In this document: positions 13,188 to 50,130 of the stretch, one piece after another | How positions within the stretch are numbered: the stretch's first letter is position 1 | How the letters are laid out: each line of letters starts with the position of its first letter | Assembly (NCBI GenBank): GCA_900661335.1 | Contig: CAACVY010000001.1 | Location: forward strand, 1 to 61,378 | Direction of reading: 5' to 3' | DNA length: 61,378 bases | Source: an uncultured bacterium | GTDB taxonomy: Bacteria; Verrucomicrobiota; Kiritimatiellia; PWTM01 | The notes under the pieces: model-generated | Told to the model about the DNA's origin: nothing | What the model saw: the letters and a program-made list of their open reading frames with translations, nothing else | The model's database searches: none | Made by a program: the position numbers and the translations under genes

Positions 13188-13338
13188 ATTACGTGAAAGC
13201 TGGCCGGTGCGCCAGGCATACCCACTGGGGACGGTGCGCGGTTTGGGAGATGGTTTTGCTTGGCTTCTCCGTGAGGACTTGCTAGACTGCCGGCTCGGAC
13301 GGTAAATCCGTCCCATAAACAAGAAAGGAGTGATCCAT

Positions 13339-14331
13339 ATGGCGAGGCCAGTAACACTGTTCACCGGTCAGTGGGCGGATCTTCCGCTGGAAACGATGTG
13401 CCAAAAGGCAAAAGACTTCGGGTACGACGGCCTGGAGCTTGCCTGTTGGGGGGACCATTTCGAGGTCGCAAAAGCCAACGCGGCCTATTGCAAAGCCAAG
13501 CGCGAATTGTTGGCGAGATACGGACTGAAGGTGTACGCGATTTCCAGCCACCTGGTGGGTCAAGCGGTGTGCGACCGTATCGACGAGCGCCACAAGGGCA
13601 TTCTGCCGGACTACGTGTGGGGCGATGGGGACCCTGAAGGTGTTCGTCGCCGCGCGGCGAAGGAAATGATCGCCACGGCAAAGGCCGCCGCCGCATTGGG
13701 TGTACAGGTGGTCAATGGATTCACCGGTTCCTCGATCTGGCATCTGCTTTATGCGTTCCCGCCGACGCCGCAGTCCATGATCGACGAGGGATATGCCGAC
13801 TTCGCTCGGCGCTGGAAACCTATCCTCGATGCTTTCCAGAAAGCCGGTGTGAAGTTCGCGCTGGAAGTTCACCCGACCGAAATCGCCTTTGACATCGTCA
13901 GCGCAGAACGCGCGCTCAAGGCCGTGGACAACCATCCTGCGTTTGGCTTCAACTTCGATCCCAGCCACCTAGCATACCAAGGCGTGGACTACGTCGAGTT
14001 CATTCGGCGGTTCCGAGATCGCATTTTCCACGTTCACATGAAAGACGTGGGAGTCGCGAAAACGCCTCGGCTGAGCGGCGTGTTTGGCGGTCACCTGCCG
14101 TTCGGCGATCCTCGCAGGTACTGGGACTTCCGTAGCCTGGGGCGCGGCAGCGTGGACTTCGAGGCCATCATCCGCGCGTTGAACGAGATCAACTATCGTG
14201 GTCCGTTATCGGTGGAGTGGGAAGACTCCGGAATGGACCGCGAGCACGGCGCGCGGGAGGCTTGCCAGTTCGTCCGCCGTTTGGATTTCGAGCCTTCGGC
14301 CGTTGCGTTCGACGCTGCATTCGAGCGCTAA
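13339..14331 (+). CDS. Sugar phosphate isomerase/epimerase family protein (xylose isomerase-like TIM barrel)
   Basis: [72 protein letters not shown] aaaggag upstream. Confidence 0.85.
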
Positions 14332-19063: not shown

Positions 19064-20584
19064 TCAGAAGTAGATATCCCGTTCGCCGGCCGCGACGCGT
19101 TGATAGGCAGCGTCAAACGCGGGCCACCACCGGGGCATAGTGCGGCGGACTTCTCCGATCTCGCGCTGGAGGACTCTTTCGCCGGCTTCTCGTGTCGGCT
19201 CGCTGGCAAAATCGTCGAGCCATTCGCGGTAGGTGAGGATCGCGTTGAGCTTACAGAATCGGGCCTCCGCTCCGCTGCGCAACAGGTCCATGATGCATTG
19301 TCCGGTTCGTCCGCAGCGATAGCCGGCGGTACAGAACGACACAATCAAGCCCATCTCGGCGAGATCCCGCACCAAATCGTCCAGCGAGCGGGTGTCGCCC
19401 AACATGAACTGCTGGCGTTCCATGGATTGTTCAGAGCGCACATCGCTGGTCGAGTAACCGCCGACTGCGATCCGCGCCGAGCCATCGGTCTGCGTAACGC
19501 CCAACTGCAATAGGCGCCGCCGGACGTCGGGCGGTTCGCGAGCCGTCAGGATCATGCCCGTGTAAGGGACGGCCAACCGCAACAGCACGACGATTCGCTC
19601 CATGTCCGTATCCGATACGCGCCATCGGGTTTCTTGGACATATGGGGCGTGGTCGGCCGGCTCGAGGCGGGGGAACGATATCGTATGCGGCCCGACGCCG
19701 AACACCCGTTCCAGTTCGATCGCGTGCGCCAACAAGCCCATGACTTCGAACTTCCAATCTCCGAGCCCGAACAATGCACCAATACCGACGTCGTCAATGC
19801 CCGCGGCCATCGCCCGGTGCATGGTGTACAATCGCCACGAGTAATTGGCCTTGAACGCCGCCGGATGAACCTGCCGGTACAGTTCCGGATCGTACGTTTC
19901 TTGGAACACCTGGTACGTACCCAGCCCAGCCTCGTGGAGACGACGAAGTTCTTCGATGCGCAGCGGGGGCGCATTGACGTTGACACGACGGATGGATCCC
20001 CAGCCGACGCGTGCACGGACCCGCACCGAGTAGATCGTCCGGATGCACTCGCAGATGAAGTCCACGTCCATGGACGGATGTTCGCCGAAGACAATGATCA
20101 GCCGTTTATGGCCAATGCGGCCCGCGAGCACTTCCACTTCGTTCCGTAGCTCCGTCATGCTCAATACCCGGCGGTCCATGTGCCGGTTCTCCACGCGTAG
20201 GCCACAGTACAGGCAGTTGTTGACGCAGCAATTGCCGATGTAGAGGGGGGCGAACGTGACGATGCGCCGGTCGTAGACCTTCAACTTGATTTCCGCGGCG
20301 ACGGTGCGCATCTCCTCCCAGAGGGCGGGGTCGGTGACGTGGAGGAGCGTTGCCAATTCGTCCAGGGATAGCGTGTGAATCGCTCGGGCCTTGGCCAAGA
20401 TGTCCCGTACCCGTTGGGCATCGGGTGGCTGTTCCGCCGCGCGCTGCAAGTGTGCACGAATCGCGTTGGGGTCGATAAAATCCCGGCCGCCCGGTCGCCA
20501 AGCGGCGATTTCATCCATGTTGATTCGACTTTGGGCCCAGCTGGCCACGTCGTGAGTCACTTGCGAGGATGTCGGACTCGTCAT
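19064..20584 (-). CDS. hydG: HydG-like radical SAM [FeFe]-hydrogenase maturase
   Basis: Radical SAM CVNNCLYCG (CX3CX2C); VGPHTISFPRLEPA; end-to-end HydG-like to the C-terminal AAGERDIYF. C-terminal cluster motif altered (see finding). Confidence 0.85.
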   Translation of the reverse strand: MTSPTSSQVTHDVASWAQSRINMDEIAAWRPGGRDFIDPNAIRAHLQRAAEQPPDAQRVRDILAKARAIHTLSLDELATLLHVTDPALWEEMRTVAAEIKLKVYDRRIVTFAPLYIGNCCVNNCLYCGLRVENRHMDRRVLSMTELRNEVEVLAGRIGHKRLIIVFGEHPSMDVDFICECIRTIYSVRVRARVGWGSIRRVNVNAPPLRIEELRRLHEAGLGTYQVFQETYDPELYRQVHPAAFKANYSWRLYTMHRAMAAGIDDVGIGALFGLGDWKFEVMGLLAHAIELERVFGVGPHTISFPRLEPADHAPYVQETRWRVSDTDMERIVVLLRLAVPYTGMILTAREPPDVRRRLLQLGVTQTDGSARIAVGGYSTSDVRSEQSMERQQFMLGDTRSLDDLVRDLAEMGLIVSFCTAGYRCGRTGQCIMDLLRSGAEARFCKLNAILTYREWLDDFASEPTREAGERVLQREIGEVRRTMPRWWPAFDAAYQRVAAGERDIYF

Positions 20585-21843
20585 AGGGGAACCTCCGCCA
20601 TGGGGTTCGCCGCCGCGCGAAAGGCGCGATAGGCATTCGGAAATGGTTCGAGCACGCGATCGAGGACTCCCCGGGCCAACGAGATGGCCAAGCCATAGTT
20701 CGTGATCGGCACTCCGGCTTCCCGAGCACGCTCGATGCGCGTCAGCGTTTCGCGTCGGGTAAGCATGCAGGATCCACAATGGACCACTACGTCGTAGCCG
20801 CTCAAATCATCGGGGTAATCCCGCCCCTGCATATACTCGATGCACAGTTCGGCGCCCACCATGGATCGCAGCCATCGGGGGAGCTTCGATCGGCCGATGT
20901 CATCCTCCAATGGGTGGTGAGAGCAAGTCTCGGCGATCAGCACGCGGCTCTGGGGACGCAAGCGCGTGAGCGCCGCTGCGCCCCGAGCGAGCTCGTCTAG
21001 ATCGCCTCGGGCACGGGCCATGAGAATGGAGAACGTCGTGCACCGAATACCTGCGGGTGTGGAACGGACCATCATATCTACGACTTGCGAGTCGCACACC
21101 ACGAGGTCCGGAGGACGCGGAAGGCTGGCGAGGGTCTCGGCGTAGCGGCATTCTTTCACAACCGTCACCACCAAGTCGTGATCCAAGGCATCGCGGATCG
21201 CTTGCACCTGCGGCAGAATCAACCGGCCGCGAGGAGCGGAAATGTCAATCGGGACGATCAGCACCAGCCAGCCACCCTTGGGAAGCAAATCGCCGAGCAA
21301 GGGCGGAACCGCCAGCACGGCATCCGGCAGCGCCTGTTCGAGTAGCCGTCGGAACCGGCGTGCAATGTCCTCGCGCTGCGCCGCGTCGACCGCGCACGCC
21401 GTGATCCAGCCCACGGTGGATTTGGCGAGACTGTCCTTTTGAATTTCTGAAACGGGCCCGAGGTCGGACTTGTTGACGACACCCACCACCGGCACCCGGC
21501 GCGCTCGGGCGGCGGCCAAAACTTCTTCTTCGGGCGGCCCCCACTGTCCAGGTTCGCATACCAACACGACTACGTCGCACCTCTGCATCGCGGCATAGGT
21601 CCGCCGGCGACGCGCTTCGCCAAGCTCGCTCACGTCGTCCAGCCCGGCGGTATCCAGTAGAACCACGGGTCCGAGGGGCCATAACTCCATCGACTTTTCC
21701 ACTACGTCCGTGGTCGTTCCCGGGATTGGCGACGTGATCGCGAGGTCTTGCCCGACCAGGTAGTTCATCAGGCTGGATTTGCCGACATTCGTCCGGCCGA
21801 AGAATCCGATGTGCAAGCGCAGTGATTTGGGTGCGGTGTTCAT
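20581..21843 (-). CDS. hydF: [FeFe]-hydrogenase maturation GTPase HydF
   Basis: GFFGRTNVGKSSLMNYL P-loop, DTAGLDD, NKSDLG; Fe-S motif ETCSHHPLEDDIGRSKLPRWL...VVHCGSCMLTRRE; GVPITNYG. Confidence 0.95.
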   Translation of the reverse strand: MNTAPKSLRLHIGFFGRTNVGKSSLMNYLVGQDLAITSPIPGTTTDVVEKSMELWPLGPVVLLDTAGLDDVSELGEARRRRTYAAMQRCDVVVLVCEPGQWGPPEEEVLAAARARRVPVVGVVNKSDLGPVSEIQKDSLAKSTVGWITACAVDAAQREDIARRFRRLLEQALPDAVLAVPPLLGDLLPKGGWLVLIVPIDISAPRGRLILPQVQAIRDALDHDLVVTVVKECRYAETLASLPRPPDLVVCDSQVVDMMVRSTPAGIRCTTFSILMARARGDLDELARGAAALTRLRPQSRVLIAETCSHHPLEDDIGRSKLPRWLRSMVGAELCIEYMQGRDYPDDLSGYDVVVHCGSCMLTRRETLTRIERAREAGVPITNYGLAISLARGVLDRVLEPFPNAYRAFRAAANPMAEVPL

Positions 21844-22459: not shown

Positions 22460-23308
22460 TCAGCGCAATGGCCGAGAGCGCGAGTCCCAAAGCGAACGCA
22501 GCGCGAGCCACAGAAATGTTGGGACCACCCGCAGGTATCTGGGGCCTAAGCGGCGTGGCTCTTGAAGCAATCGGTACAGCCACTGCAATCCCGATCGTTG
22601 GACCCACCTCGGCGCGTCGGTTCGAATCCCAGCCAAGATATCAAACGCCGCACCCACACCCACGAGCACCGGGGAGGGGTCCGTGGGAGCGTGGTCCGGC
22701 CACCGACGGTGCCAGTCGGCCATGAATTGCTCTTGCTTCGGCGTGCTCATGCCGACCCAGAGCAGCTCGACCCGGGCGATGCGAACTGCGCTCAACAACG
22801 CGGTCCACTCGTCTCCGGTCAGAGGACGAAAGGGCAGTGGCCAGGAGCCGGCGATCGTCACATGCGGGTACATGAAACGGACGCGATGCTCCAGGGCTTG
22901 CAGGACCTCTGGGGTGGAGCCCACAAATCCATGACGGAGGCCGGACGTGCTGGCGGCAATGTCCGGAGCGGAGGGTGGGGCGGAGGACCACATCAGGACT
23001 TTGCGCATGAGATCCGGGCCGTACACTCGACCGACGAGGGGAACTCTTCGAAGTCGTGCGAGCCACACCAAGGGCATGCCGTCTGGCACCGTCAGCCACG
23101 AGGCGTTGTGGATGTCCTTCAGCTGAGGATCGCGTTGGCACTCCACCACGCCGTGGGCGCCGGTCACGCAGACGTAGCCCCCGATGCGGTGGCGCGCGGC
23201 GCGCACGATCATTTCAGCCGCCCGGTCCAAAGTGACGGCGCTGATTTGTACGCCGGCCACGTCGAACCGTGAAGGCAGCTCAGTGGGAACCTGCAAGATC
23301 TCCGCCAC
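22460..23308 (-). CDS. WecG/TagA/CpsF family glycosyltransferase
   Basis: SWLTVPDGMPLVWLARLRR, YGPDLMRKVL, ELLWVGMSTPKQEQFMADW, GVGAAFDILAG, RSGLQWLYRLLQEPRRL. GTG start at 23308 tentative; ORF extends to 23407. Confidence 0.88.
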   Translation of the reverse strand: MAEILQVPTELPSRFDVAGVQISAVTLDRAAEMIVRAARHRIGGYVCVTGAHGVVECQRDPQLKDIHNASWLTVPDGMPLVWLARLRRVPLVGRVYGPDLMRKVLMWSSAPPSAPDIAASTSGLRHGFVGSTPEVLQALEHRVRFMYPHVTIAGSWPLPFRPLTGDEWTALLSAVRIARVELLWVGMSTPKQEQFMADWHRRWPDHAPTDPSPVLVGVGAAFDILAGIRTDAPRWVQRSGLQWLYRLLQEPRRLGPRYLRVVPTFLWLALRSLWDSRSRPLR

Positions 23309-23331
23309 GACGTTGAAACCTCTTCGACTAC

Positions 23332-24699
23332 TCAACGAGCTCCTCGGCCCGAAACGATGGCCCAGAAGGTTTGCGCCAGGATCAACAAATCCAGCCAAAC
23401 GGACCAATTGCGGACGTAGTACACGTCCCAGCGCGCCATTTCATGGATGTCGAGATCACTGCGGCCTCGGATTTGCCAAAGCCCGGTAATCCCGGGGCGC
23501 ACACGCTCGCGCACCCGGCGCGCATGGGGTGGGAGCACGGCGTGGTGATAGTTCGGCAACGGCCGAGGGCCGACCAGCGACATTTCTCCCCGCAGAACGT
23601 TCCAAACTTGTGGAATTTCGTCCAGCGACCAACGGCGCAGCACGCGTCCGATCAGACTCACGCGCCAATCATTGTTTAGCTTGTGGGTTCGGGTCCATTC
23701 CTCGCGGAAGGCTGGATCGTTCGCGAGGCGTTCTTCGAGTTGCCGTTCGGCATCGGGTACCATCGTCCGCAGTTTCCAGATTCGGAATGGCTGACCTCCC
23801 TCGCCGATTCGCTCTTGGGAGAACAGTGGCCAGCGACGATCCCAGAGTAAAATTGCCAGCATGGCAAGCACGCCCAGCGGCAACCACAGGGGGGCCAAGA
23901 CGAACAAGAGCAGCAAGTCAAGAGCTCGCTTGAGCCCGCGCCAACGCGGATCGGCGAGTTGGTTGGTGATCGTTAACCCCATGATGCCTTGGAGATCTTC
24001 TGGCACGACATTCAATGCCGTGTCGACCAATAGCTCCGGCACGAGCACCACCTTGCGATAGTTACGGAGAGGGCCATCGAGAAGTTGCTCCAGCGCTGGG
24101 CTAGTCAAACCCGATTGCGCCAGGATGATGGACTCGAATTCTTTGGCCCCTCGTTCGATCTCCGCTGGGAGCTGGGAATCGTCGGCCGTCCATCGGATGA
24201 CTCGGGCGGGTCGATATCCGATCGCAGGGTGAGATTGCAGCCAGTTCGCCACGGTATCCAGTAAGGGCGGGTCGCCGATCAGGATGACCGGCGCCCCCCA
24301 CCATGCATGATAGGCTAGGCGCTCTCGAACGATGTGCCGGGCGATCGGCAGGCCGATGGCGGCGGCTGCATACGCGATAAAATACGAGCCGCGATTGGCC
24401 GCCGGCGCAAAATCGCCTACGAACACGATCACGGCGGCCAGCGCGTAGATTGCGGCGAGCAGGCGCTCCACATGGCAGAGTTCGACCGCTGGGTTCAACC
24501 CCCAACCGGGAACAAGTTCGAGCCACAATGCCGCCAAGGCCCAAACAGGCACTACCAAAAGGCTGTAGCGCAGAGAGACCGGGGTGCCCACGAGCCAATG
24601 CATGACGAGGTCACCGAACCACAGGCCGGCCAGCAGCACCGCGCAATCCACCGCCAAAATCGTGCTGGTCGCCAGTGATTTTCGAACGGACAGCGTCAT
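23332..24699 (-). CDS. Polyprenyl glycosylphosphotransferase (WbaP-like)
   Basis: N-terminal TM segments; FRIWKLRTMVPDAE; RRWSLDEIPQVWNVLRGEMSLVGPRPLP; RPGITGLWQIRGRSD. Confidence 0.9.
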   Translation of the reverse strand: MTLSVRKSLATSTILAVDCAVLLAGLWFGDLVMHWLVGTPVSLRYSLLVVPVWALAALWLELVPGWGLNPAVELCHVERLLAAIYALAAVIVFVGDFAPAANRGSYFIAYAAAAIGLPIARHIVRERLAYHAWWGAPVILIGDPPLLDTVANWLQSHPAIGYRPARVIRWTADDSQLPAEIERGAKEFESIILAQSGLTSPALEQLLDGPLRNYRKVVLVPELLVDTALNVVPEDLQGIMGLTITNQLADPRWRGLKRALDLLLLFVLAPLWLPLGVLAMLAILLWDRRWPLFSQERIGEGGQPFRIWKLRTMVPDAERQLEERLANDPAFREEWTRTHKLNNDWRVSLIGRVLRRWSLDEIPQVWNVLRGEMSLVGPRPLPNYHHAVLPPHARRVRERVRPGITGLWQIRGRSDLDIHEMARWDVYYVRNWSVWLDLLILAQTFWAIVSGRGAR

Positions 24700-24778
24700 A
24701 GTTTACGATCCCAGCGAACGTTCGCTTCGGGGCCACCGCCGCCGCGCTGCGGATTTTTTTGCGAATTCTAAGCTAGGG

Positions 24779-24807
24779 TTGCCTTTTGTCACACGCGAAG
24801 ATACAAT
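24779..24807 (+). promoter_or_regulatory. Putative sigma70 promoter for the sugar transferase at 24926
   Basis: TTGCCT-N17-TACAAT in an AT-richer stretch of the divergent intergenic region. Confidence 0.6.
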
Positions 24808-24925
24808 ATCTAAATGTTTGTTCCAAGGATCCAGTGAAAGTGATGCACGACGTGGCAGCCTTGGTCGAGGGCTTCTATTTGAACCTGCGGCACGCGGGTC
24901 GATTCTGGAGTTGGAGAATTTCCGG

Positions 24926-26509
24926 ATGCGAGCCTTGTTCCGACGTTTGAGAAAGACGACGCTGTATTTGATTATGGCCGACGCCATGTGTTTCTTCGCC
25001 GCCTTCGGGCTCGCCATGCGGATTCGGTTCCGCCCGAATATCAACGTGATCGAGCTCCGAACCGGCGAGATGATCCCCGAGCTCGCGTTCGTATTGCTCC
25101 TGTCGTTCACGCTTGTGCCGATGGTGTTCAACTTGCTTCGACTTTACCAGCGTCGCGTCCTGTTGTCGCCGCCGTGGCACGCCGTTCAGATCCTCAAGGG
25201 AGTCGCCATCGTCGGCGCGACGTACATTGTGCTGCAGTTTTTGACCAAGTCCACTCTGTTGGTCCAGTCTAGGTGGGTCATGGCGATGTGGCTGGGGATC
25301 ACTGCGGCTGGGCTGTTAGTCCACCGTATGCTGGTGCTCCCATTTTTGCTTCGCTTATGTGCGCGCAACCTTCTGCATCGCCGCATCGCCCTGATGGGAG
25401 TTAACGACGTCAGTGTCCGTTTTGCGCGCGAGCTGCTGGCCAACCCGGATCGGTATTTGGTGCGCCCGATTGGGTTCATCAGCGATTCGGTGGCGGTCGG
25501 CGTCGAGCCCGTTCCAGGCTTACCGGTGCTGGGGCCTTTGTCCAAGCTCGAGATCTTGACGGACCTTCACCAACTTGAGGGCGCCATTTTGATGGCCCAA
25601 GGGCAGGACTATGACACGCTGCTGCAGACGGTGGAAACCTGCGCTCGAACCTTCGGTTGGGTGGAGGTGCATGCAGACCGGATTGCCACGCTGAGCCGAG
25701 ATTTGGATCCGGACACGTACTTCGACATTCCGTTTTTGCGGATGGGAAATGCAGCCCAAGGGGCGTGGATCCGGTGGCAAAAGCGGGTGTTCGATGTGAC
25801 GCTCGCGGGTCTCGCGATCGTCGTGTTGGCACCGGTCTTCGGACTGATCGCGGTACTGGTCCGGCTGACCTCTCCAGGACCGATCTTTTACGTGAGCGAG
25901 CGCGTAGGTCAGGGTGGCCGGAAGTTTCGGTTTTACAAATTCCGTACGATGGTGACGGGTGCGGACCGCGATCCAACGCGGCGCGAACAGGTCAAGCGGT
26001 TGTACACTGACCCAGATCAGGCCATGCCGCAAAAGGTCGTCAATCCAGCGCTGCTCACGCCAATTGGAATTTTCCTCCGCAAGTGGGCCCTGGACGAGTT
26101 GCCGCAGTTGTGGAACGTGTTGAAAGGCGATATGTCCCTCGTGGGACCTAGGCCGCTGCCACCGGACGAGTACGAACTGCAAACCGAATGGCAAAAGGGC
26201 CGGTTCGATGTTCCCCCTGGCTGCACGGGCTTGTGGAAAGTATACGCGGCACAGTATACGGAGATGCCGTTCAGCCAAGCGGCCATGTACGACATCTTTT
26301 ATGCGCGTAACGCCAACCTCGTGATGGACGTCACCATCCTGTTCAAAACTGCTTGGATTGTCCTGCGCGGGCTGGCGGATGGTCCCATTCCGCCGCGAAG
26401 TTCTCCTGAGTCGCGCGCACGCCATCGGGTCGCGCCGGCGCCTTCCGCGCCACCGGTTCGCGCCCCGTTCGCTGAAACGCCTTCGACGAATGCCACCACA
26501 TCGAGCTGA
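24926..26509 (+). CDS. Polyprenyl glycosylphosphotransferase (second copy)
   Basis: MRALFRRLRKTTLYLIMADAMCFFAAFGLAMRI; FRFYKFRTMVTGADRD; KWALDELPQLWNVLKGDMSLVGPRPLPP; VPPGCTGLWKVYAA. Confidence 0.88.
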   Translation: MRALFRRLRKTTLYLIMADAMCFFAAFGLAMRIRFRPNINVIELRTGEMIPELAFVLLLSFTLVPMVFNLLRLYQRRVLLSPPWHAVQILKGVAIVGATYIVLQFLTKSTLLVQSRWVMAMWLGITAAGLLVHRMLVLPFLLRLCARNLLHRRIALMGVNDVSVRFARELLANPDRYLVRPIGFISDSVAVGVEPVPGLPVLGPLSKLEILTDLHQLEGAILMAQGQDYDTLLQTVETCARTFGWVEVHADRIATLSRDLDPDTYFDIPFLRMGNAAQGAWIRWQKRVFDVTLAGLAIVVLAPVFGLIAVLVRLTSPGPIFYVSERVGQGGRKFRFYKFRTMVTGADRDPTRREQVKRLYTDPDQAMPQKVVNPALLTPIGIFLRKWALDELPQLWNVLKGDMSLVGPRPLPPDEYELQTEWQKGRFDVPPGCTGLWKVYAAQYTEMPFSQAAMYDIFYARNANLVMDVTILFKTAWIVLRGLADGPIPPRSSPESRARHRVAPAPSAPPVRAPFAETPSTNATTSS

Positions 26510-26753
26510 CTGCTATGGGTTCTGGGGAGTGTCCGCATTCGCCGAGGGCGGGGCAGTCGCACGCTTGATTGGCATGCAATTCATCGGGTCCGAGGGGACC
26601 GAGGCCGTGCTCGTGGCAGATTGTCTTGCTTCATTCGCCTGCGTCAAGTCTTGGCATCCCACGACTCACGCGGGATTGGCCGATGCATCGGCGGTTCCGA
26701 AGTGTCTTTGTGAATCGTTCTGGCCTGTGGCCCCATCGAGAGCGGTCTGAGGC

Positions 26754-27878
26754 CTAGACGGCCCGATCAAAAAACTCTCGGATGACCGCCACCACACGAT
26801 TCAACTGGGCCTCGGTCATTTCGGGGTAGATGGGCAAGGAGAGAATTTCTTGTGCCAAGCGTTCCGCCACCGGGAATTGGCCTCGTTTCCAGCCCATGTG
26901 CGCATAGGCCGGTTGGAGGTGAATCGGCACGGGGTAGTGAATCAATGCTCCGATCCCGTGTTCTTGCAACCAAGCCAGTAGCCGGTCACGGTAGGAGGTG
27001 CGAATCACGTAGAGATGCCATACCGGTTCCACATCGGCTTGTGCCTTTGGCAGCTGCAGATCGCCTACGCCTTTCAGGAGTTCCTCATACCGCGCTGCCA
27101 GCTCGCGCCGTCGCGCATTCCAAGTATCCAGGTGTGCCAGTTTGGCGTTCAACACGGCCGCCTGCAACGTGTCGAGACGGCTGTTCTCCCCGCAGAGCTC
27201 GTGGATGTACTTCACCTTCGAGCCGTAGTTTCTCAGCGTGGCGATGCGGTCCGCTAACGCCTCGTCGTTGGTGGTCACCGCTCCCCCGTCGCCATAGGCG
27301 CCTAGGTTCTTGCCCGGATAAAAACTGAAGGCGGCGAGCACGCCCAACGAACCGCACCGGCGGCCACGATACCGCGCGCCATGGGCCTGGGCCGCATCTT
27401 CCACCAAATGCAGACCATATCGCTCGCAGATCGCACCGATCGCAGCAATGTCCGCCGGATGGCCATAAAGATGAACCGGCAGTACCGCGCGGGTTCGGTC
27501 CGTGATCGCCGCCTCGATTTGTGCCGGGTTCATGGTGAAGGTGTCTGGTTCGCAGTCCACCAGGACTGGTTTCGCTCCCACCGCTGTGACAGCCAGGGCG
27601 GTGGCGATAAAACTGTTGGCCACCGTGATCACTTCATCCCCGGGGCGGATCTCGAGCGCGCGGAGCGCGAGTTTCAGGGCGTCCAAGCCCGAGGCCACCC
27701 CGACGGCTCGTCGGCATTCGCAGAACGAGGCGAACGCAGATTCAAACTCCGCGAGCTCGTGTCCAAGGATGAAATCCGCCCGTGTCAATGTCGCATCGAG
27801 TCGCCGCCGCACTTCAGGTTCGATCGCGCGAAACTGCGCGACGAGATCCACGAGTGGTATTCGATTCTCGTAGGTCAC
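26754..27878 (-). CDS. DegT/DnrJ/EryC1/StrS aminotransferase (FdtB/QdtB-like candidate)
   Basis: RIPLVDLVAQFRAIEPEV; HLYGHPADI; HLVEDAAQAHGARYRGRRCGSLGVLAAFSFYPGKNLGAYGDGGAV (PLP Lys). Confidence 0.9.
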   Translation of the reverse strand: MTYENRIPLVDLVAQFRAIEPEVRRRLDATLTRADFILGHELAEFESAFASFCECRRAVGVASGLDALKLALRALEIRPGDEVITVANSFIATALAVTAVGAKPVLVDCEPDTFTMNPAQIEAAITDRTRAVLPVHLYGHPADIAAIGAICERYGLHLVEDAAQAHGARYRGRRCGSLGVLAAFSFYPGKNLGAYGDGGAVTTNDEALADRIATLRNYGSKVKYIHELCGENSRLDTLQAAVLNAKLAHLDTWNARRRELAARYEELLKGVGDLQLPKAQADVEPVWHLYVIRTSYRDRLLAWLQEHGIGALIHYPVPIHLQPAYAHMGWKRGQFPVAERLAQEILSLPIYPEMTEAQLNRVVAVIREFFDRAV

Positions 27879-27937
27879 CGATTAACCTCCGGATGGTTAC
27901 GTTGGACTTCGCGAGCCCCTCGCTCCCAAAGCTCATT

Positions 27938-28939
27938 TTACCTCCCTTCGGGGCCTCGCGTACCTTCTTCGGCGAGCGAGTGGCCCGGGGCCAACCCCAC
28001 CGCGCGGGCCCAGTCCGTGCCACTCCACGTCTGCCCGTTCCAACGTACCTCGATCAATTCGATCGCGCCGACGGCGGCAGCGATTTCGAGTGGCGCAGTT
28101 CGCAGTACATGTCCAACTGGCGCGCGGCCGACAGTCGCACGGCAGCGGAGGACTTCGATTCGCACGCCGCGAAATTGAAAATACGGAACCTGCAAGGGTG
28201 GAAAGATCCGAGCCCGGATCCAGGCACTCAACGCCCGAGCGGGCTGAGTCCAACGGACTTCAAGGTCTTCGAACGGGAACTGACCTTTCGGATGGTAGGT
28301 TACGTACCGCGGGTCCTGAGGCACTGCCCCCAAGTTGCCACTGGCGATCGCGGGCAAACTCTCCTGGACCAGCGCCACGCCCTCCTTCAGTGCACGCTCA
28401 TACAAATCCCAGGCTGTGGTGTCGTCGCGGATCGGCCAGCGGCGCATGGCATAGATCGGGCCGTCGTCAACCCCGACGGCTTCGACCCGGTGCAGCGTGA
28501 CGCCCATGAACAAAAGTCCATCGTGGATGGCCCAGGCGAACGGGTCGCACCCGCGGAGCAATGGCAGTGGGGCATGGTGCAAGTTGACGGTGCCGCGTTT
28601 CGGGATCGTCACCAAGGGCGGGGCCAAAAGACGCCGGCACTGCACACTCAATAATAGATCGGCATTCACCTCCGCCACACGCTGGCAGATGAGCGGGTCA
28701 TTGGGGTTGGCGGGCTGCAGCAGGGTCGCTCCGTCCTGGTAGCCGAGCTCCCGTGCATGACGGACCAGCGATTCGCGCCACGTGTCTTCGCCGCGATCGC
28801 CAGGGTCCGCCAGCACGAGAGGAACCTCGCAGCCGATTTCCCGCAGCGCATGTAGAACTCGAACGGCTGCGGTGCCGTTACCAATCAAGACGACCGAGGG
28901 GGCCTTCAAACTCGTCGCTCCACCAGGACGGGACGGCAC
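27938..28939 (-). CDS. Formyltransferase family protein, probable sugar N-formyltransferase
   Basis: VVLIGNGTAAVRVLHAL; TVNLHHAPLPLLRGCDPFAWAIHDGLLFMGVTLHRVEAVGVDDGPIY, with the Asn/His/Asp formyltransferase triad. Start uncertain. Confidence 0.8.
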   Translation of the reverse strand: MPSRPGGATSLKAPSVVLIGNGTAAVRVLHALREIGCEVPLVLADPGDRGEDTWRESLVRHARELGYQDGATLLQPANPNDPLICQRVAEVNADLLLSVQCRRLLAPPLVTIPKRGTVNLHHAPLPLLRGCDPFAWAIHDGLLFMGVTLHRVEAVGVDDGPIYAMRRWPIRDDTTAWDLYERALKEGVALVQESLPAIASGNLGAVPQDPRYVTYHPKGQFPFEDLEVRWTQPARALSAWIRARIFPPLQVPYFQFRGVRIEVLRCRATVGRAPVGHVLRTAPLEIAAAVGAIELIEVRWNGQTWSGTDWARAVGLAPGHSLAEEGTRGPEGR

Positions 28940-29370
28940 GGTTCGTGGGCCGTAGCCGCCATGGTTTCGAAAGCCTCTCGGCTCCGGATATAGTCGCTTT
29001 CGTCGTACTCCATGCTCGCCAAGGCCAACAAATCCGTGGCCGGCTCGAAGTCATGCACGACGCGCCAAACTCGCGGCGGTAAGTACAATCCTCGATCACG
29101 CCGGTCTAACCGGACCACGGCGGTTTGCCCGCGGCCGTTGTCCAGTTCCACCGTGCACGCCCCGCGCAGGCACACCAACACTTCTTCGGTCCCAAGGTGG
29201 GCGTGTCCCCCACGCACGTGTCCCGGCTGAAGGTCGGTAATATACAAGACTTTGCGGATTTGGAATGGTATGGCGTCCGTCCGTGGTCCCGGCTGTAACA
29301 TGATCAACGTGCCGCCGCTTCGGCCACGGTGCTCGACCAACGGGATCCAGCGGTATAGCCCCTCACTCAT
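28906..29370 (-). CDS. FdtA/QdtA-type cupin dTDP-sugar 3,4-ketoisomerase
   Basis: IPFQIRKVLYITDLQPGHVRGGHAHLGTEEVLVCLRGACTVELDNG; GLYLPPRVWRVVHDF; LASMEYDESDYIRSREAF. Confidence 0.88.
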   Translation of the reverse strand: MSEGLYRWIPLVEHRGRSGGTLIMLQPGPRTDAIPFQIRKVLYITDLQPGHVRGGHAHLGTEEVLVCLRGACTVELDNGRGQTAVVRLDRRDRGLYLPPRVWRVVHDFEPATDLLALASMEYDESDYIRSREAFETMAATAHEPCRPVLVERRV

Positions 29371-30344
29371 TCTTGATCTCCAGAGTCCAGCCCGAGCTGT
29401 TTGCGATACAGTGCTACGTATTCCTTCAGGTAGTCGGCCAACGTGCGAGTGGGACGCCAACCTAGTGCACGGACTTTATCCGAGTTGACCGAGTAGCGCA
29501 GGTCCTGGCCCGGCCGATTAGGAATGAAGACAAATGCGTCCTTCGGGTCTACACCGACGGCCTGCGCGGCCATCGAAGCTGCCTCCAACACGCTGTGTTC
29601 TTCGCCCGAGGACACGTTGTAGATCTCGCCCACCTGACCGCGTTCCATGATCAGAAAAATCGCTTCGCAGTTGTCGCCGGCATACAGCCATTCGCGCCGG
29701 TAACTGCCGTCGCCGTGAATGGTCATTTTCTTTCCGCGGAGCAGAAACTCGATCGTTTTGGCCAGCAGCTTTTCCGGATACTGCCCAAAGCCATAGTTGT
29801 TACAGCTTCGGATAATCTGCACCGGCAACCCGTAGGTGTTCTTCCAGCCTAATACGAGTTGGTCAGCCGCGGCTTTGGTGGCGGAGTAGGGGTTGGACGG
29901 ACACAGCCGATCCGTTTCCTTAAACGAACCCCGAAGGATTGTTCCGTAGACTTCGTCCGTCGAAATCTGCACGAACAGCGGCCGGTCCGTTTCATCCTTC
30001 GCGCGCACGAGCTCCAACAGATTGTATACGCCCTGGACGTTGCTATGAAAGAAGTCCTGGTTGGCGAGAATCGCATTGTCCACATGGGATTCGGCCGCGA
30101 AGTTTACGATCGCCTCTACACCCACCGGGAGGTGGGTCAGCTCGCAAATGTCCGCCTTGATGAAGTGATAATTCGGGAAGCGCTCGAAGCCAAGGTCCTG
30201 CCGTGCCGCGTAGGTGACCTTGTCCACGTTGACCACCTCATAGCCACGTTCCAAGGCCATGCGGACGAAATAGGACCCGATGAACCCAAGGCCGCCCGTG
30301 ACCATGATCCGCTTGAGCCTGCTTCGTGCGATTCTTCCTGTCAT
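29367..30344 (-). CDS. rfbB: dTDP-glucose 4,6-dehydratase
   Basis: IMVTGGLGFIGSYFVRMAL; NFAAESHVDNAI; QISTDEVYGTI; NPYSATKAAADQLVLGW; RSCNNYGFGQYPEKL. Confidence 0.95.
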   Translation of the reverse strand: MTGRIARSRLKRIMVTGGLGFIGSYFVRMALERGYEVVNVDKVTYAARQDLGFERFPNYHFIKADICELTHLPVGVEAIVNFAAESHVDNAILANQDFFHSNVQGVYNLLELVRAKDETDRPLFVQISTDEVYGTILRGSFKETDRLCPSNPYSATKAAADQLVLGWKNTYGLPVQIIRSCNNYGFGQYPEKLLAKTIEFLLRGKKMTIHGDGSYRREWLYAGDNCEAIFLIMERGQVGEIYNVSSGEEHSVLEAASMAAQAVGVDPKDAFVFIPNRPGQDLRYSVNSDKVRALGWRPTRTLADYLKEYVALYRKQLGLDSGDQE

Positions 30345-30818
30345 GGCGATTGGTCTCTTTTCGTTGGTTATCTTATCTGACCACGATCGCCACGCAAAAC
30401 TCCTAACGCGGTGGGTCGCGCGATCCGAGGTGCAAAAACGATGCGGGGTTCTAGTCCCAACGCTGCGGCGCCCCAACCGTGCGCCAGTATTCAGGCCAAT
30501 CCGTGTAGCAGGTGTACTTACACCGCGACCGCGGCAAAGGCACCGAAGTGGAACCAACGTAGCAGCAGCGCCGGACCTGCACTCGCTACGTGTCCGATGC
30601 TTCTGCCCTAGCGTCTCATACACTTTGACCATGCCGCGGCGTCCCCTCCGGCTGAAATCCCACGTCGCGGAGTGCTTACAAGATGAGCGTGAGAATTGCA
30701 GCGCTGCTGTGCGATGCCTGCAGGCGCCTCGTGGTTCGAAGCGGTGGCCCGTTCCGTGGACCTGGATCCATAAGAATCTCTCGGGGCAACTGGAAGTACC
30801 GTCGTTGGGCCGGAGTTT

Positions 30819-30831
30819 TCCAAGGTTTGGA
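30819..30831. repeat. Palindrome TCCAA-GGT-TTGGA
   Basis: Noncoding; same TCCAA-N3-TTGGA format as two copies at 50779 and 50811. Confidence 0.4.
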
Positions 30832-31044
30832 CAAACTTGGTTGCACGCCGTCCGAGCCTTGGATGGCGGACGCCCGACCGCAGGAACAATTCCCCCCAAT
30901 CTCTTTCCAGACCCGCGGCGTCAACACGGCCGGCGGCGATTGGCCGCGTTGAATTGCTGCCTTGTCGTCGCTTCCAACCCAGGTGGGCGGACATGCTTGG
31001 GTGACTCGACAAGGCGCCGCCTTTGAGCGAGCTTAGTATGCCCC

Positions 31045-33048
31045 ATGCAACCTGGCAGTCAGTTGGTGACGACCATCGGCGAGCGGTGCCGCGTATGCTA
31101 CACGTGCGTGCGCGACTGCCCGGCGAAGGCCATTCGGATTGCCGGTGGGCAGGCGAGAGTCGTTCCGGAGCGCTGTATCGGCTGCGGGAATTGTTACCGC
31201 GTATGCAGCCAAAAGGCGAAGCAGGTGTACGATTCTCGGAATGATGTGCGCGCTCTGCTGGCTTCTGGCCGCACGGTGGCGGCCATCGTGGCGCCGAGTT
31301 ACCCTGCCGAGTTTTCAGACCTGGAACCCTCGCAGGTGGCCGGCATGATCCGCCGCTTGGGCTTTCAACTCGTGTGTGAAACCGCATTCGGAGCCGATTT
31401 GGTCGCCCAGGAGTACCGGCGGCTGCTTGAAACGGACCGTGGCCGTTTCATCGGAACGACCTGCCCTGCCGTGGTCGCCTATGTTCAAAAATACTTGCCC
31501 GAGTTAGTGCCGAACCTCGCGCCGATCGTGTCGCCCATGATCGCAGAAGCCCGTGCACTCCGGCGTATTCATGGGGATGAACTCGCGGTGGTGTTCATCG
31601 GGCCCTGTTTGGCCAAAAAGGTCGAAGCCGACGGGATGGGGGCGCAGACTGCGGAAGTCGAAGCGGTCCTTACCTTTGTCGAGCTACGCGCAATGTTGCG
31701 CGAGGCGGGTATCGAACCGCGCCCGGCATCGGAAGAGCGCGACTTTGATCCTCCTCATCCCACGTTGGGCGCGCTGTTTCCAATCAGTCGCGGACTGCTC
31801 CAGGCCGCGCATTTGCGCGAGGACCTTTTGGAGGGCACCATCGTGGCGGCCGATGGGCGCCCCGCGTTTTTGCAAGCGTTGAGCGACTTCGCGGCGGGCG
31901 CGCTGGACGTCCGCCTGCTGGAAGTGCTCTGCTGTAACGGCTGTGTCATGGGGGCGGGGATGAGTGTGGACGCGCCGCTGTTCCAGCGCCGGATGGCGGT
32001 CAGCCGTCACGCGCGACGGCGTGTCGAACGATCCGATCCCGCGACTGAAGAACTCATTCGTCACCGCTTGGCCGGTCTCGACCTCCGCGCGGAGTTCCGG
32101 CCAGAAAAACTCCCCCCGAGCGCTGTCCCGCCGGAGGAATTGAAACGGATCTTGGCGGTGATGGGCAAGCTCAGCCCGGAGGACGAACTGAACTGTGGGG
32201 CGTGTGGCTACTCGACCTGCCGTGAGCACGCTGCGGCCATCTATTTGGGGCTGGCCGAAAGCGAGATGTGCCTCCCGTACACGATCGACCGTTTGCGGGA
32301 ATCGCTTAAGGAGTTGAGCGAGTCCAACGCGCAGTTGGCCAGCGCGCGCGAAGCCCTGATGAATGCGGAGAAACTGGCCAGCATGGGGCAGTTGGCCGCG
32401 GGCATCGCCCACGAGATCAACAACCCACTCGGGGTGATCCTCCTGTATGCAAAGATGTTGTTGAACGAAATTCCACCGGCCTCGCAGGCGCGTCAAGATC
32501 TGGCGCTGATTGCCGAACAGGCCGAACGGTGCCGAAACATCGTGTCAGGGTTGCTCAACTTCGCGCGACGGAATCGTGTCGTCCGGCGTCCGACCAATCT
32601 CATCGAACTGGTCGAACGCTGTCGACGAGGGGTCGTGATTCCGGACCATGTCTACGTGTATGTTCGGCATAACATGCGCGATCCGATGGCGGAAGTGGAC
32701 GGCGACCAGATCCTGCAGGTGTTGACCAACCTGATCGTCAATGCTGTCGAGGCGATGCCCAATGGGGGCGAGCTGACGATTGAAACCGATGATACGGACG
32801 AGGAAGTCATCCTCCGAGTGCGGGATACGGGTTGTGGAATTCCGCCCCAGAACTTGCCCAAGATTTTCGAGCCTTTCTTCACGACCAAGCAGATCGGGAA
32901 AGGCACCGGACTTGGCTTGGCGGTGGCCTATGGAATCGTCAAAATGCACCGAGGGCGGATCGAAGTTACGTCGAATGCGGATCCCTCTCGCGGGCCGACC
33001 GGCACGACGTTCACGGTGACCTTGCCCCGTCGAGCGGAGGAGGTGTGA
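31045..33048 (+). CDS. [FeFe]-hydrogenase-like sensory histidine kinase (2x[4Fe-4S] - H-cluster domain - Fes cluster domain - HisKA - HATPase)
   Basis: CRVCYTCVRDCP and CIGCGNCYRVCS ferredoxin motifs; H-cluster motifs TTCPAV, GPCLAKK, EVLCCNGCVMGAG; NCGACGYSTCREHAAAI...MCLPY; GQLAAGIAHEINNPLG; DGDQILQVLTNLIVNAVEAM; DTGCGIP; GTGLGLAV. Confidence 0.9.
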   Translation: MQPGSQLVTTIGERCRVCYTCVRDCPAKAIRIAGGQARVVPERCIGCGNCYRVCSQKAKQVYDSRNDVRALLASGRTVAAIVAPSYPAEFSDLEPSQVAGMIRRLGFQLVCETAFGADLVAQEYRRLLETDRGRFIGTTCPAVVAYVQKYLPELVPNLAPIVSPMIAEARALRRIHGDELAVVFIGPCLAKKVEADGMGAQTAEVEAVLTFVELRAMLREAGIEPRPASEERDFDPPHPTLGALFPISRGLLQAAHLREDLLEGTIVAADGRPAFLQALSDFAAGALDVRLLEVLCCNGCVMGAGMSVDAPLFQRRMAVSRHARRRVERSDPATEELIRHRLAGLDLRAEFRPEKLPPSAVPPEELKRILAVMGKLSPEDELNCGACGYSTCREHAAAIYLGLAESEMCLPYTIDRLRESLKELSESNAQLASAREALMNAEKLASMGQLAAGIAHEINNPLGVILLYAKMLLNEIPPASQARQDLALIAEQAERCRNIVSGLLNFARRNRVVRRPTNLIELVERCRRGVVIPDHVYVYVRHNMRDPMAEVDGDQILQVLTNLIVNAVEAMPNGGELTIETDDTDEEVILRVRDTGCGIPPQNLPKIFEPFFTTKQIGKGTGLGLAVAYGIVKMHRGRIEVTSNADPSRGPTGTTFTVTLPRRAEEV

Positions 33049-34238
33049 TGGAGCGTTGGCGTGTTTTAGTGGTGGACGACGAACCCGGGATGTGCCGGGG
33101 TGTCCAGCGGGTGTTGCAACGTCACACCGTGCAACTGCCCGACTTGGGGGCCGAGATCGGGTTTGAAACTGAGGGCGTGGAAACGCTAAGCGAGGCGCGG
33201 GCGGCGCTGACGGCCCGACGGCCGGATCTCATCTTGCTCGACTACAAGCTGCCCGATGGATCGGGGCTGGATTTTTTGCGCGAGCTTCGAACCAGCCAGT
33301 GGGATGGATTGGTGATCATTATTACTGCGTTCGCCTCATTGGACGTTGCGGTCGCGGCGACGCGCAACGGGGCCTTCGATTTCTTGGCCAAACCGTTTGC
33401 GCCGGAAGAACTCGAGACGGTGGTTTCCAAGGCCGTGCGGACGCTTGTGGTCGAACGTCGTGCAAGGCGGTTGGAAGAAGAGCGGCGCCGTACGCGTCTG
33501 GAGTTCCTGTCGGTTCTTGCGCATGAGCTCAAAGCGCCCATTGGGGTGGTGGAGGGAATTTTGCGCCTGATGGCCTCGCGGGTGTTGGGAGCGGATATTT
33601 CCGCCTATGACCGACACATTCACCGCGCGTTGGCCCGGCTGGAAGGAATGCGCAAGCTGATTTTGGACTTGTTGGATCTGACCCGGATCGAGGCTGGCGA
33701 ACGGCGGCGTGAGCTCGGGCGCGTGGATGTGGCTGAGGTGGCGCGCGCCGCCCTCGACATGGTGGCCAGCGATGCCGCGGCACGAAAGATCCAGCTCCGC
33801 TTGCACGCGCAGCCACCGGTCGAGCTGTGGGCCGACCGTAGCGAATTGGAAATCATCCTGAACAACCTAGTGAGCAATGCAGTAAAGTACAACCGCGACG
33901 AAGGATCGGTGGACGTCTGGCTCCGGCGCCTAGAGGACGGCGTGGAGATCGAGGTGGCGGACACCGGGGTGGGGATGACCGAGGAAGAACAGGCACGGTT
34001 GTTTCGAGAATTCTCGAGGATCCGCAACGAAAAAACGCGGAACATTCCGGGCAGTGGATTGGGCCTATCGACCGTGAAAAAGCTGGTGCAAATCTATCGC
34101 GGCGAGATTACGGTCCGCAGTCAACCGGACGTCGGTTCGACCTTCACCGTCCGATTGCGCGATGCAACGGCTGCGAATCCGTCCACCCCGCCGCAGGCTC
34201 AGGTGATCTCGCCAACTCCCGTGGCGGAATCGCGCTGA
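33048..34238 (+). CDS. Response-regulator receiver fused to a histidine kinase
   Basis: VLVVDDEPGM...LILLDYKLPDGSGLDFL...KPFAPEEL receiver; EFLSVLAHELKAPIG HisKA; NNLVSNAVKYN, DTGVGM, GSGLGLSTVK HATPase. Overlaps the upstream stop (TGATG). Confidence 0.93.
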   Translation: MERWRVLVVDDEPGMCRGVQRVLQRHTVQLPDLGAEIGFETEGVETLSEARAALTARRPDLILLDYKLPDGSGLDFLRELRTSQWDGLVIIITAFASLDVAVAATRNGAFDFLAKPFAPEELETVVSKAVRTLVVERRARRLEEERRRTRLEFLSVLAHELKAPIGVVEGILRLMASRVLGADISAYDRHIHRALARLEGMRKLILDLLDLTRIEAGERRRELGRVDVAEVARAALDMVASDAAARKIQLRLHAQPPVELWADRSELEIILNNLVSNAVKYNRDEGSVDVWLRRLEDGVEIEVADTGVGMTEEEQARLFREFSRIRNEKTRNIPGSGLGLSTVKKLVQIYRGEITVRSQPDVGSTFTVRLRDATAANPSTPPQAQVISPTPVAESR

Positions 34239-47787: not shown

Positions 47788-50130
47788 TTACTTGACCTGG
47801 AGCCAGGGTTCTCCGGTGCCGGCAATGACCGCTTGGCCAAACGCAACCCCGCCGTCGTTGGGAGCAACTTTCTGGTGGGTCAGCACCCTGAACCCGCGGT
47901 GTTCTAACTCGTTCGACAAGCTCTCGTGGAGAAGACGGTTCATAAATACACCGCCGGACATTCCGACCGTCGTCATGCCGGTTTGCTCCCGTGCATGTTC
48001 TACCATGCGCAGCGCGGCTTGGACCATTGCGGCGTGGAACGTGCGTGCAATATCCGGAACGCGGTCGAGGAGCCGAGGCACCGCGTAGAGCCAACGAAAC
48101 AGCGGTGACCAGTCCACCCACAGAAATTCCCCCTCGAGTTCCGCGGACCAAAACGTACGGGCGAGCGACTCGTCCGCCCAACCCGGCCGTGCGCGGGCCT
48201 CCAAGCGTACGGCGGTCTGTCCCTCATATGTGACGGTTTCCGGCGCCAGGTGCAGCGCTGCGGCAACGGAGTCAAAGACGCGACCCGCTGCATGCGTCGC
48301 GAACACGTTCCACGATCGTTGAACTTGGGCTTGCCAGATCTCGGCGGTGCGTTCGGGAATTCCAAGGCGGCGTGCGATCGCTTCCAGCGAATCCACCTTT
48401 AACACGAGCCACCGCGCAAAGATCTGTCGTACGGGCTCGCGCACGGCCGCGTCCCCGCCGAGAAGCGGTGCAGGTCGGAACGACGCCAGGCGGCGCGCAT
48501 GGGCGAAGTTAGGAAGGAGGAACAACTCCGCGCCCCAGATCGTTCCATCGGGCCCCAAGCCGGTGCCATCCCAAGCTAACACCAGGCCCGACTCGCACCC
48601 ATGCTCGGCGAGCACCGCCACGGCGTGTGCATGGTGGTGCTGAATGCGCACGACCGACCCATGATGCTTCAATGCCAGTTCCTCGCCCAGGCGAGTGGAG
48701 TGGTAGTCCGGATGCAGATCCACGGCCACCACCGAAGGGTGGATGCGAAGAAAGTCCGGTAGTGAAGTTGCAACTTTGCGCAAGTGCGCCACAGCTTCGG
48801 GCGCTTCGAGGTCCCCGATGTGGGGCGACATCCAAACGCAGTTGCCCTCGGCCACCGCGACCGTGTTCTTCAGCTCGGCACCCATAGCCAGTACCGATCG
48901 TTGGAGCGGCCGATGCAACCGAACAGGCTCGGGCGCCCACCCGCGGGCACGCCGCCAGACCTGCAAGGTTCCAGATCGCGGGGTGGCCAGAGAGTCGTCA
49001 GCGCGAAATTGGATCTCCCGGTTGTGGAGCAACAACAGATCCGCCACATCGCGCAACGCGGTAAGAGCTTCTTCGTTGGACAAACAGATCGGCGCACCAC
49101 TTCGGTTGCCGCTGGTCATGACCAGTAAGTCGAATGGAGGAACGGGGTCGTCACGGAGAGGCATCCCTAGCAACAGTTGCAGTGGCGTGGCGGGCAACAT
49201 GATGCCGATGGTGCCCGTGTCAGGTGAAAGCCATTCCACCAGCCGTTGGCCAAGCGGCGTTGGGTCTAGGATGACAATCGGGGTTACGGGCGGTCCGAGG
49301 GCGTCGCGGAGTTCGTCCGGGACCACGACGTACCGAAGGAGGGTGTCCAAGTCGCGCGCCATGACGGCGAGGGGTTTCGAGGGGCGGCGCTTGCGCTCGC
49401 GGAGCCGGCGGACCGCATCGGGCTGGGTCGCGTCCACCGCCAGTAGAAACCCGCCCATGCCCCGCAGTGCGACAATGCGACCCGCTGCCAAGGCGGCCCG
49501 CGCAACGCGAATCGGTTCGCCCGACACCGGTTGGCCGTCGGATGTGACCAGCTGCAGACGTGGGCCGCAGATCGGGCATGCGATGCTCTCCGCGTGAAAT
49601 CGCCGGTCGCTCGGATCCTCGTATTCGCGTTGACACGCGGCACAGAGAGGAAACACGCGCATGGTGGTGCGCACACGATCGTACGGCATGGACTCGATCA
49701 CGGTGTAGCGAGGTCCGCAGTCGCAGCACGTGGTGAAGGGATACCCATACCGGCGGTTGGAGGGATCCAGGACTTCTACACGGCACGCGTCGCACATCGC
49801 CATGTCCGGTGGAATCCCAGGTCGCGCGGTGGGATCCTCCCCGCCATACCGAATGTGGAAAGGTCCGTGTGCTCCGGGGGGAATCCGCATGAGCTCCACG
49901 GTGCGGATCGAGTCCACTCGAGCACGCGGCGGGAGGCGCGACGGCAACTCGTCCAAAAACCGCTGCACCAGCTCCTCGGGTCCTTCGAGTGCCAACCGCA
50001 CGGTGCCCGTGCGGTTCTGCACCCACCCGCCCAGCCCTGCGGCCGTGGCCAGGCGGTGGAGCGCGGGACGGAACCCCACGCCCTGGACGATCCCAGTGAG
50101 GTCAACGACATGACGGATCCAACACGACAC
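47788..50130 (-). CDS. hypF: Carbamoyltransferase HypF ([NiFe]-hydrogenase maturation)
   Basis: Acylphosphatase domain GIVQGVGFRPALHRLA; zinc motifs CDACRVEV/CCDCGPRYT/CAACQREY/CPICGPRL; RERKRRPSKPLAVMARD; HHHAHAVAVLAEHG; MSGGVFMNRLL. Confidence 0.97.
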   Translation of the reverse strand: MSCWIRHVVDLTGIVQGVGFRPALHRLATAAGLGGWVQNRTGTVRLALEGPEELVQRFLDELPSRLPPRARVDSIRTVELMRIPPGAHGPFHIRYGGEDPTARPGIPPDMAMCDACRVEVLDPSNRRYGYPFTTCCDCGPRYTVIESMPYDRVRTTMRVFPLCAACQREYEDPSDRRFHAESIACPICGPRLQLVTSDGQPVSGEPIRVARAALAAGRIVALRGMGGFLLAVDATQPDAVRRLRERKRRPSKPLAVMARDLDTLLRYVVVPDELRDALGPPVTPIVILDPTPLGQRLVEWLSPDTGTIGIMLPATPLQLLLGMPLRDDPVPPFDLLVMTSGNRSGAPICLSNEEALTALRDVADLLLLHNREIQFRADDSLATPRSGTLQVWRRARGWAPEPVRLHRPLQRSVLAMGAELKNTVAVAEGNCVWMSPHIGDLEAPEAVAHLRKVATSLPDFLRIHPSVVAVDLHPDYHSTRLGEELALKHHGSVVRIQHHHAHAVAVLAEHGCESGLVLAWDGTGLGPDGTIWGAELFLLPNFAHARRLASFRPAPLLGGDAAVREPVRQIFARWLVLKVDSLEAIARRLGIPERTAEIWQAQVQRSWNVFATHAAGRVFDSVAAALHLAPETVTYEGQTAVRLEARARPGWADESLARTFWSAELEGEFLWVDWSPLFRWLYAVPRLLDRVPDIARTFHAAMVQAALRMVEHAREQTGMTTVGMSGGVFMNRLLHESLSNELEHRGFRVLTHQKVAPNDGGVAFGQAVIAGTGEPWLQVK

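Follow-up and report, generated by a model that had tools for sequence, protein, structure and literature searches.

Organization of the locus

The DNA analysed here, a stretch of 61,378 nucleotides referred to as the window, carries a gene encoding a HydS-type [FeFe]-hydrogenase-like domain fused to a histidine kinase (the sensor), followed by a gene encoding a receiver-kinase (the partner), whose ATG at 33048 overlaps the stop codon of the sensor as TGATG. The features of this pair, and the hydrogenase maturation genes on the same contig, are the following:

31045..33048, + strand: HydS-type [FeFe]-hydrogenase-like domain fused to histidine kinase, 667 aa
31087..31206, + strand: two N-terminal [4Fe-4S] motifs, Cys 15, 18, 21, 25 and Cys 44, 47, 50, 54
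31273..31956, + strand: H-domain (PF02906), with Cys140 in TTCP, Cys188 in GPC, Cys297 and Cys300 in CNGC
31921..31944, + strand: EVLCCNGC, the third H-cluster motif, which lacks one residue of the canonical ExMxCxxGC
32194..32271, + strand: C-terminal Cx2Cx4Cx16C cluster motif, Cys 384, 387, 392, 409
32272..32382, + strand: helical linker from cluster motif to kinase, no PAS domain found
32383..32571, + strand: HisKA dimerisation/phosphoacceptor domain, His456 in HEINNP
32698..33033, + strand: HATPase_c catalytic domain of the sensor (Pfam)
33048..34238, + strand: partner receiver-HisKA-HATPase kinase, 396 aa, without DNA-binding domain
33240..33242, + strand: receiver phosphoacceptor Asp65, at least 97% conserved in 66 homologues
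33522..33524, + strand: partner phosphoacceptor His159 (HELKAP), at least 97% conserved in 66 homologues
19064..20584, - strand: HydG, radical-SAM maturase of the H-cluster, its start taken to be the ATG that overlaps hydF (the open frame continues to 20779)
20581..21843, - strand: HydF, H-cluster maturation GTPase, gene overlapping HydG
47788-50130, - strand: HypF, [NiFe]-hydrogenase maturation protein

Pfam matched the N-terminal half of the sensor to Fer4 pairs (residues 12-54) and Fe_hyd_lg_C (77-304, E 7e-43), and the C-terminal half to the FeS domain PF04060 (382-411), HisKA (447-509) and HATPase_c (552-663). NCBIfam hydrogenase models matched far under their cut-offs, so the H-domain is divergent. 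An AlphaFold2 model built from 68 homologues reached a mean pLDDT of 88, and its best PDB matches in Foldseek were [FeFe]-hydrogenases (E ~1e-20) and the ZraS kinase (5e-19), with a Desulfovibrio hydrogenase, Thermoanaerobacter kivui HydA and CpI on one side and ZraS and CckA on the other among the best matches. These results confirm the fused hydrogenase-kinase domain order proposed in the initial annotation, and the TTCP, GPCLAKK and C-terminal cluster motifs are present as first described. That the sensor has no space for a PAS domain also holds: Pfam found none, and the gap of ~35 residues between the FeS and HisKA domains is modelled as one helix (410-435). All eight cysteines of the N-terminal [4Fe-4S] motifs are invariant in the 68 homologues, and the Cx2Cx4Cx16C motif was present in 80 of 80 loci, the best of at least 578 relatives.

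The putative H-cluster site keeps its ligand cysteines but has a shortened third motif

Alignment to solved hydrogenases placed Thr139 of the sensor at C299 of CpI, Cys140 at C300, Gly186 at M353, Cys188 at C355, Lys191 at K358, Leu295 at M497, Cys297 at C499 and Cys300 at C503 (CpI residues numbered as in common usage and PMC8163306). The four ligand positions, C140, C188, C297 and C300, are invariant in 68 sensor-family sequences, as are the PCxxK lysine and the APS loop. At the C299 position the family has Thr, Ser or Ala, and no member with a legible motif retains the Cys; the M353 position is Gly (GPC) in 75 of the 75 motifs found and the M497 position is an invariant Leu. The earlier view that the proton-relay cysteine is lost and the remaining H-cluster cysteines are kept is therefore borne out; its reading of the motifs and ligands stands, but it overlooked the residue missing from the third motif, which is C-x-G-C in the sensor and in nearly all relatives instead of the canonical C-x-x-G-C. 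Only two members of the family, L043 and L133, retain the canonical CxxxC spacing, while CxxGC is retained by catalytic HydA and by those PAS-type relatives in which the motif could be read. The first Cys of CCNGC was considered as a ligand that would restore the canonical spacing, but many relatives have Ala, Ser or Phe there, so it is not a conserved ligand.

Since the ligand cysteines are invariant but the third motif is shortened and C299 and M353 are lost, binding of an H-cluster by the sensor H-domain is putative, though likely. The contraction is a specific reason for caution, both on H-cluster binding and on H2 sensing, and we know of no spectroscopically studied H-cluster protein with a C-x-G-C spacing. 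The loss of C299 and the change of M353 to Gly agree with known sensory enzymes of the TmHydS type; TmHydS and TamHydS are without C299 and yet hold a functional H-cluster (PMC10055695, PMC8163306). TamHydS likewise carries Leu at the M497 position (PMC8163306), a change that in CpI hindered [2Fe] insertion (PMC10055695).

Residues for a predicted relay are in place in both proteins

Pfam matched the partner to Response_reg, HisKA and HATPase_c, which, together with the coordinates, agrees with its first description as an overlapping receiver-HisKA-HATPase protein with no DNA-binding domain. The phosphoacceptor His and Asp residues are in place in sensor and partner: His456 is invariant in the 68 homologues and Asp65 and His159 are conserved as listed above. 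Asp61 of the single-domain receiver found in related operons (L117 numbering) is conserved too. A working relay requires this conservation, which leaves the direction of phosphotransfer unproven; a relay of the sensor signal to the second kinase is plausible.

The pair recurs within hydrogenase operons of many phyla

In a survey of 390 genomes of the phylum, close homologues of the sensor (50-100% identity) were found in 17 genomes. HydG was detected in 16 of these 17 against 162 of the 373 others (p=2.4e-5, uncorrected for phylogeny), and the one sensor genome without detected HydG, G321, has HydA beside the sensor. Separately, 13 survey genomes hold PAS-type or other Fe_hyd relatives without detected HydG (G101, G104, G110, G124, G172 and G311 among them), and six of the 13 share one genus.

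A scan of a public genome collection gave at least 578 sensor relatives, of which the best 80 loci were mapped by HMM; these are the closest relatives, and the counts below hold for the sensor family, not for all group C proteins. Lentisphaerae, Planctomycetota, Hydrogenedentota, Acidobacteria, Myxococcota, Latescibacterota, Calditrichota and Elusimicrobia are among the names in the titles of the MAGs that yielded these 80. The recurring operon reads Rex, HydC, HydB, HydA, (receiver), sensor, receiver, receiver-kinase, HydE/HydG, HydF. Where the flanks permitted a call, the receiver-kinase lies directly downstream of the sensor in 62 of 65 loci, a single-domain receiver adjoins the sensor in 50 of 60 and HydA is immediately upstream in 53 of 63. 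Sensor and receiver-kinase thus co-occur in many phyla, and the possibility raised in the initial annotation, that they might never be found together outside one genome, falls away. The pair is tied to H2 metabolism far more closely than the sequence-only reading could show, and because the pair is kept in hydrogenase operons across many phyla, it very probably belongs to a hydrogen- or redox-sensing circuit.

Other neighbours are scattered only; an NtrC-type regulator occurs in 7 of the 80 loci at varying positions and was not taken as an output. The catalytic HydA of the sensor operons (L055-L134) reads TSCSPGW in 51 of 56 cases, with Ser at the C300 ligand position, a variant known from Hydrogenedentota (PMC11406978), whereas the sensor keeps the C300 Cys and loses C299. 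In our own tree of the sensor family, PAS-type relatives and HydA, the sensor family forms a clade (support 0.92) apart from the other two.

In the family of the window the pair stands outside the operon

HydG and HydF, which the initial annotation had not pointed out, lie ~10 kb upstream of the pair, and HydA (TSCCPAW, full motifs) and HydB of the same genome are on contig C126. HydE had no match in the assembly, which we attribute to its completeness of 68%, since three of three genomes of the same genus carry HydE. Throughout the family of the window HydG is kept in all genomes and HydE in all but this incomplete assembly, and sensor and partner are found at 61-78% identity. No hyd structural genes adjoin the pair in the window or in the loci L055-L057; in this family the pair has moved out of the hydrogenase operon, and in the window it is isolated, with sugar-nucleotide genes on one side and glycogen-debranching genes on the other.

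Between HydFG and the pair lies an exopolysaccharide/nucleotide-sugar cluster (22460-30899) with two bacterial sugar transferases, a WecG/TagA type glycosyltransferase and an epimerase-like gene, and the mevalonate pathway genes for mevalonate kinase, HMG-CoA synthase and HMG-CoA reductase are grouped at 8814-13364 (- strand). Despite HypF, the incomplete assembly yielded no NiFe large subunit.

Single-domain receivers as candidate outputs

The question of the output regulator, which the initial annotation had raised, is narrowed rather than answered. The receiver of the operon is missing from the family of the window (absent from 8 of 8 genomes with a full-length query, positive controls 1e-46 to 1e-86; a 50-residue query gave no match in the genome of the window, and was too short to be informative). 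The other seven genomes have single-domain receivers of another family, RR2, which in close relatives lies in or near Hox operons. It closes a Hox-type NAD-linked [NiFe]-hydrogenase operon in G007 and G020 (HoxEF, U, Y, H, protease, RR2); the RR2 gene of G053, G216 and G248 is close to the one for the NiFe large subunit. In G055 a single strand reads HoxU-HoxY-HoxH-protease-RR2-HydC-HydB-HydA-sensor-RR1-receiver kinase-HydG-HydE-HydF. Hox operons of relatives that end in an RR2 of 123-128 aa lie at L153:5294-10797, L154:4610-10089 and L049:14223-17831, the last continuing directly into a HydABC-sensor operon.

The receivers that travel with hydrogenase operons carry no DNA-binding domain, and those inside the operons are candidate outputs. 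A wider proposal, which we regard as a rather long shot, is that of a widespread H2-sensing relay working through an H-cluster with a shortened motif coupled directly to a kinase, in which single-domain receivers, and no DNA-binding protein, act on the hydrogenase enzymes or their maturation. If it were true, the receivers would be those of the HydABC operon in most phyla and those of the Hox [NiFe] operon in the relatives of the window.

Relation to known sensory hydrogenases

In HydDB, group C1 carries the label 'histidine kinase-linked (putative)' (PMC5037454). For Hydrogenedentota, a HATPase_C domain in C1 proteins and adjacency to A3 genes in 21 of 53 cases have been reported, the best HydDB C1 match being described as without HATPase domain (PMC11406978), and in Vallitalea and Cloacimonadota C1 genes lie near kinases encoded by separate genes (PMC6163223, PMC8542988). 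Like C1 proteins, those of the sensor family join an Fe_hyd domain of sensory type to a histidine kinase, here by fusion, often beside group A3 hydrogenase genes, and one homologue (L118) comes from CSSed162cmA_463, a Hydrogenedentota genome used in PMC11406978. As kinase-linked and HATPase-bearing C1 proteins have been described, this kind of protein is already known. The C1 reports (PMC5037454, PMC11406978), however, include no receiver or receiver-kinase partners and no family-wide operon, and leave the missing P1-P3 motifs unexplained; the C-x-G-C contraction may be the reason why these signatures were hardly detected in the HATPase-bearing C1 proteins of Hydrogenedentota.

Thermotoga maritima HydS (group C, M2f) resembles the sensor in its two N-terminal clusters, the lack of C299, the Gly at M353 and the C-terminal Cx2Cx4Cx16C motif, a feature of sensory groups C and D (PMC8163306), but it has the PAS domain that defines M2f after this cluster, whereas the sensor has none, is fused directly to the kinase and has a shortened third motif. 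Thermoanaerobacter mathranii HydS (group D, M2e) is likewise without PAS and shares the C-terminal cluster, Leu at M497 and a kinase gene nearby; group D has Ser or Thr at M353, as M2e is defined, and no fused kinase, while the sensor family has Gly in all motifs found. The regulatory [NiFe]-hydrogenase with HoxJ (HydDB 2b) is alike in that an H2-sensing hydrogenase controls a histidine kinase, but its active site is unrelated and its kinase is a separate protein with a PAS-like domain. The sensor would fit best as a kinase-fused variant without PAS, close to HydDB group C1, a placement by description and not by reference tree. In the open literature, subscription papers excepted, we found no description of a PAS-less fusion with relay partners, of the cross-phylum operon, of the shortened motif or of the receiver-Hox link. 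To the known group our analysis adds the partners in the relay, an operon shared by many phyla, the contraction of the motif and candidate outputs.

Discussion

Taking into consideration the computed domains, the conservation of phosphotransfer residues and H-cluster cysteines and the linkage to HydABC/HydEFG operons, we infer H-cluster binding, H2 as ligand, a direction of phosphotransfer and an output. The N-terminal half would be a sensory [FeFe]-hydrogenase of low turnover that HydEFG matures, and its H-domain would read H2, or a redox state set by H2; the helix would drive the HisKA dimer, and the kinase would pass phosphate to the receiver domain of the adjacent REC-HisKA-HATPase protein and so alter the second kinase. 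In most relatives the adjacent single-domain receiver would be phosphorylated too, the final target being hydrogenase expression or activity. In TamHydS, H2 induces a structural change and the C-terminal cluster stays oxidised (PMC13104023), for which reason a conformational signal is favoured and an electron path through the C-terminal cluster to the kinase is doubtful. In Ruminococcus and Thermoanaerobacterium, sensory hydrogenases of the PAS type have effects on fermentation and on hydrogenase genes. We consider it fairly probable that the pair is such a hydrogen-sensing (H2 or H-cluster redox) phosphorelay; the contracted third motif, the invariant Leu at M497 and the position of the pair outside the operon in its own family count against it.

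The first two of these points, with the loss of C299 and M353, would also fit a hydrogenase relic that binds only the [4Fe-4S] cubane, as Nar1/NARF proteins do, and that senses the ferredoxin redox state or oxygen, its relay controlling the hydrogenase genes. The authors of the Hydrogenedentota study, who barely found P1-P3 motifs in HATPase-bearing C1 proteins, doubted H2 sensing (PMC11406978). Against such a relic, the four ligand positions are invariant over many phyla, nearly all sensor genomes encode HydG, and the CxxxC spacing kept in L043 and L133 suggests that the site is still a cluster site; we judge it unlikely, although it deserves to be taken seriously. Recruitment of the pair to another job in this particular organism would account for the lack of adjoining hyd structural genes in the window and in L055-L057 and for the loss of the operon receiver from the whole family, but HydF and HydG are only 10 kb off, the pair is retained at 61-78% identity, and HydG, and HydE except in the incomplete assembly, are found in every family genome, so that we hold recruitment to be quite improbable. 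That the sensor is mainly a catalytic hydrogenase modulated by its attached kinase, as its complete N-terminal [4Fe-4S] relay would allow, is very improbable given the replaced proton-relay Cys in every member with the motif read, the Gly at M353 and the separate catalytic HydA (TSC[S/C]P) in operon and genome.

Returning to the phosphorelay, the sensor-kinase relay is real and conserved, and it probably responds to H2. It is a good experimental target, with occupancy of the H-cluster site as its key point, and the shortened motif poses a chemical question, whether an H-cluster can be assembled on C-x-G-C. The finding bears on the signal output of sensory [FeFe]-hydrogenases, as no partner is known for the characterised TmHydS and TamHydS, and work on TamHydS published in 2026 asks for its interaction partner to be identified (PMC13104023). 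Here a single polypeptide combines sensor and kinase, and the following protein of the relay is encoded beside it, which makes H2-dependent autophosphorylation and transfer directly assayable; this arrangement occurs in hundreds of genomes.
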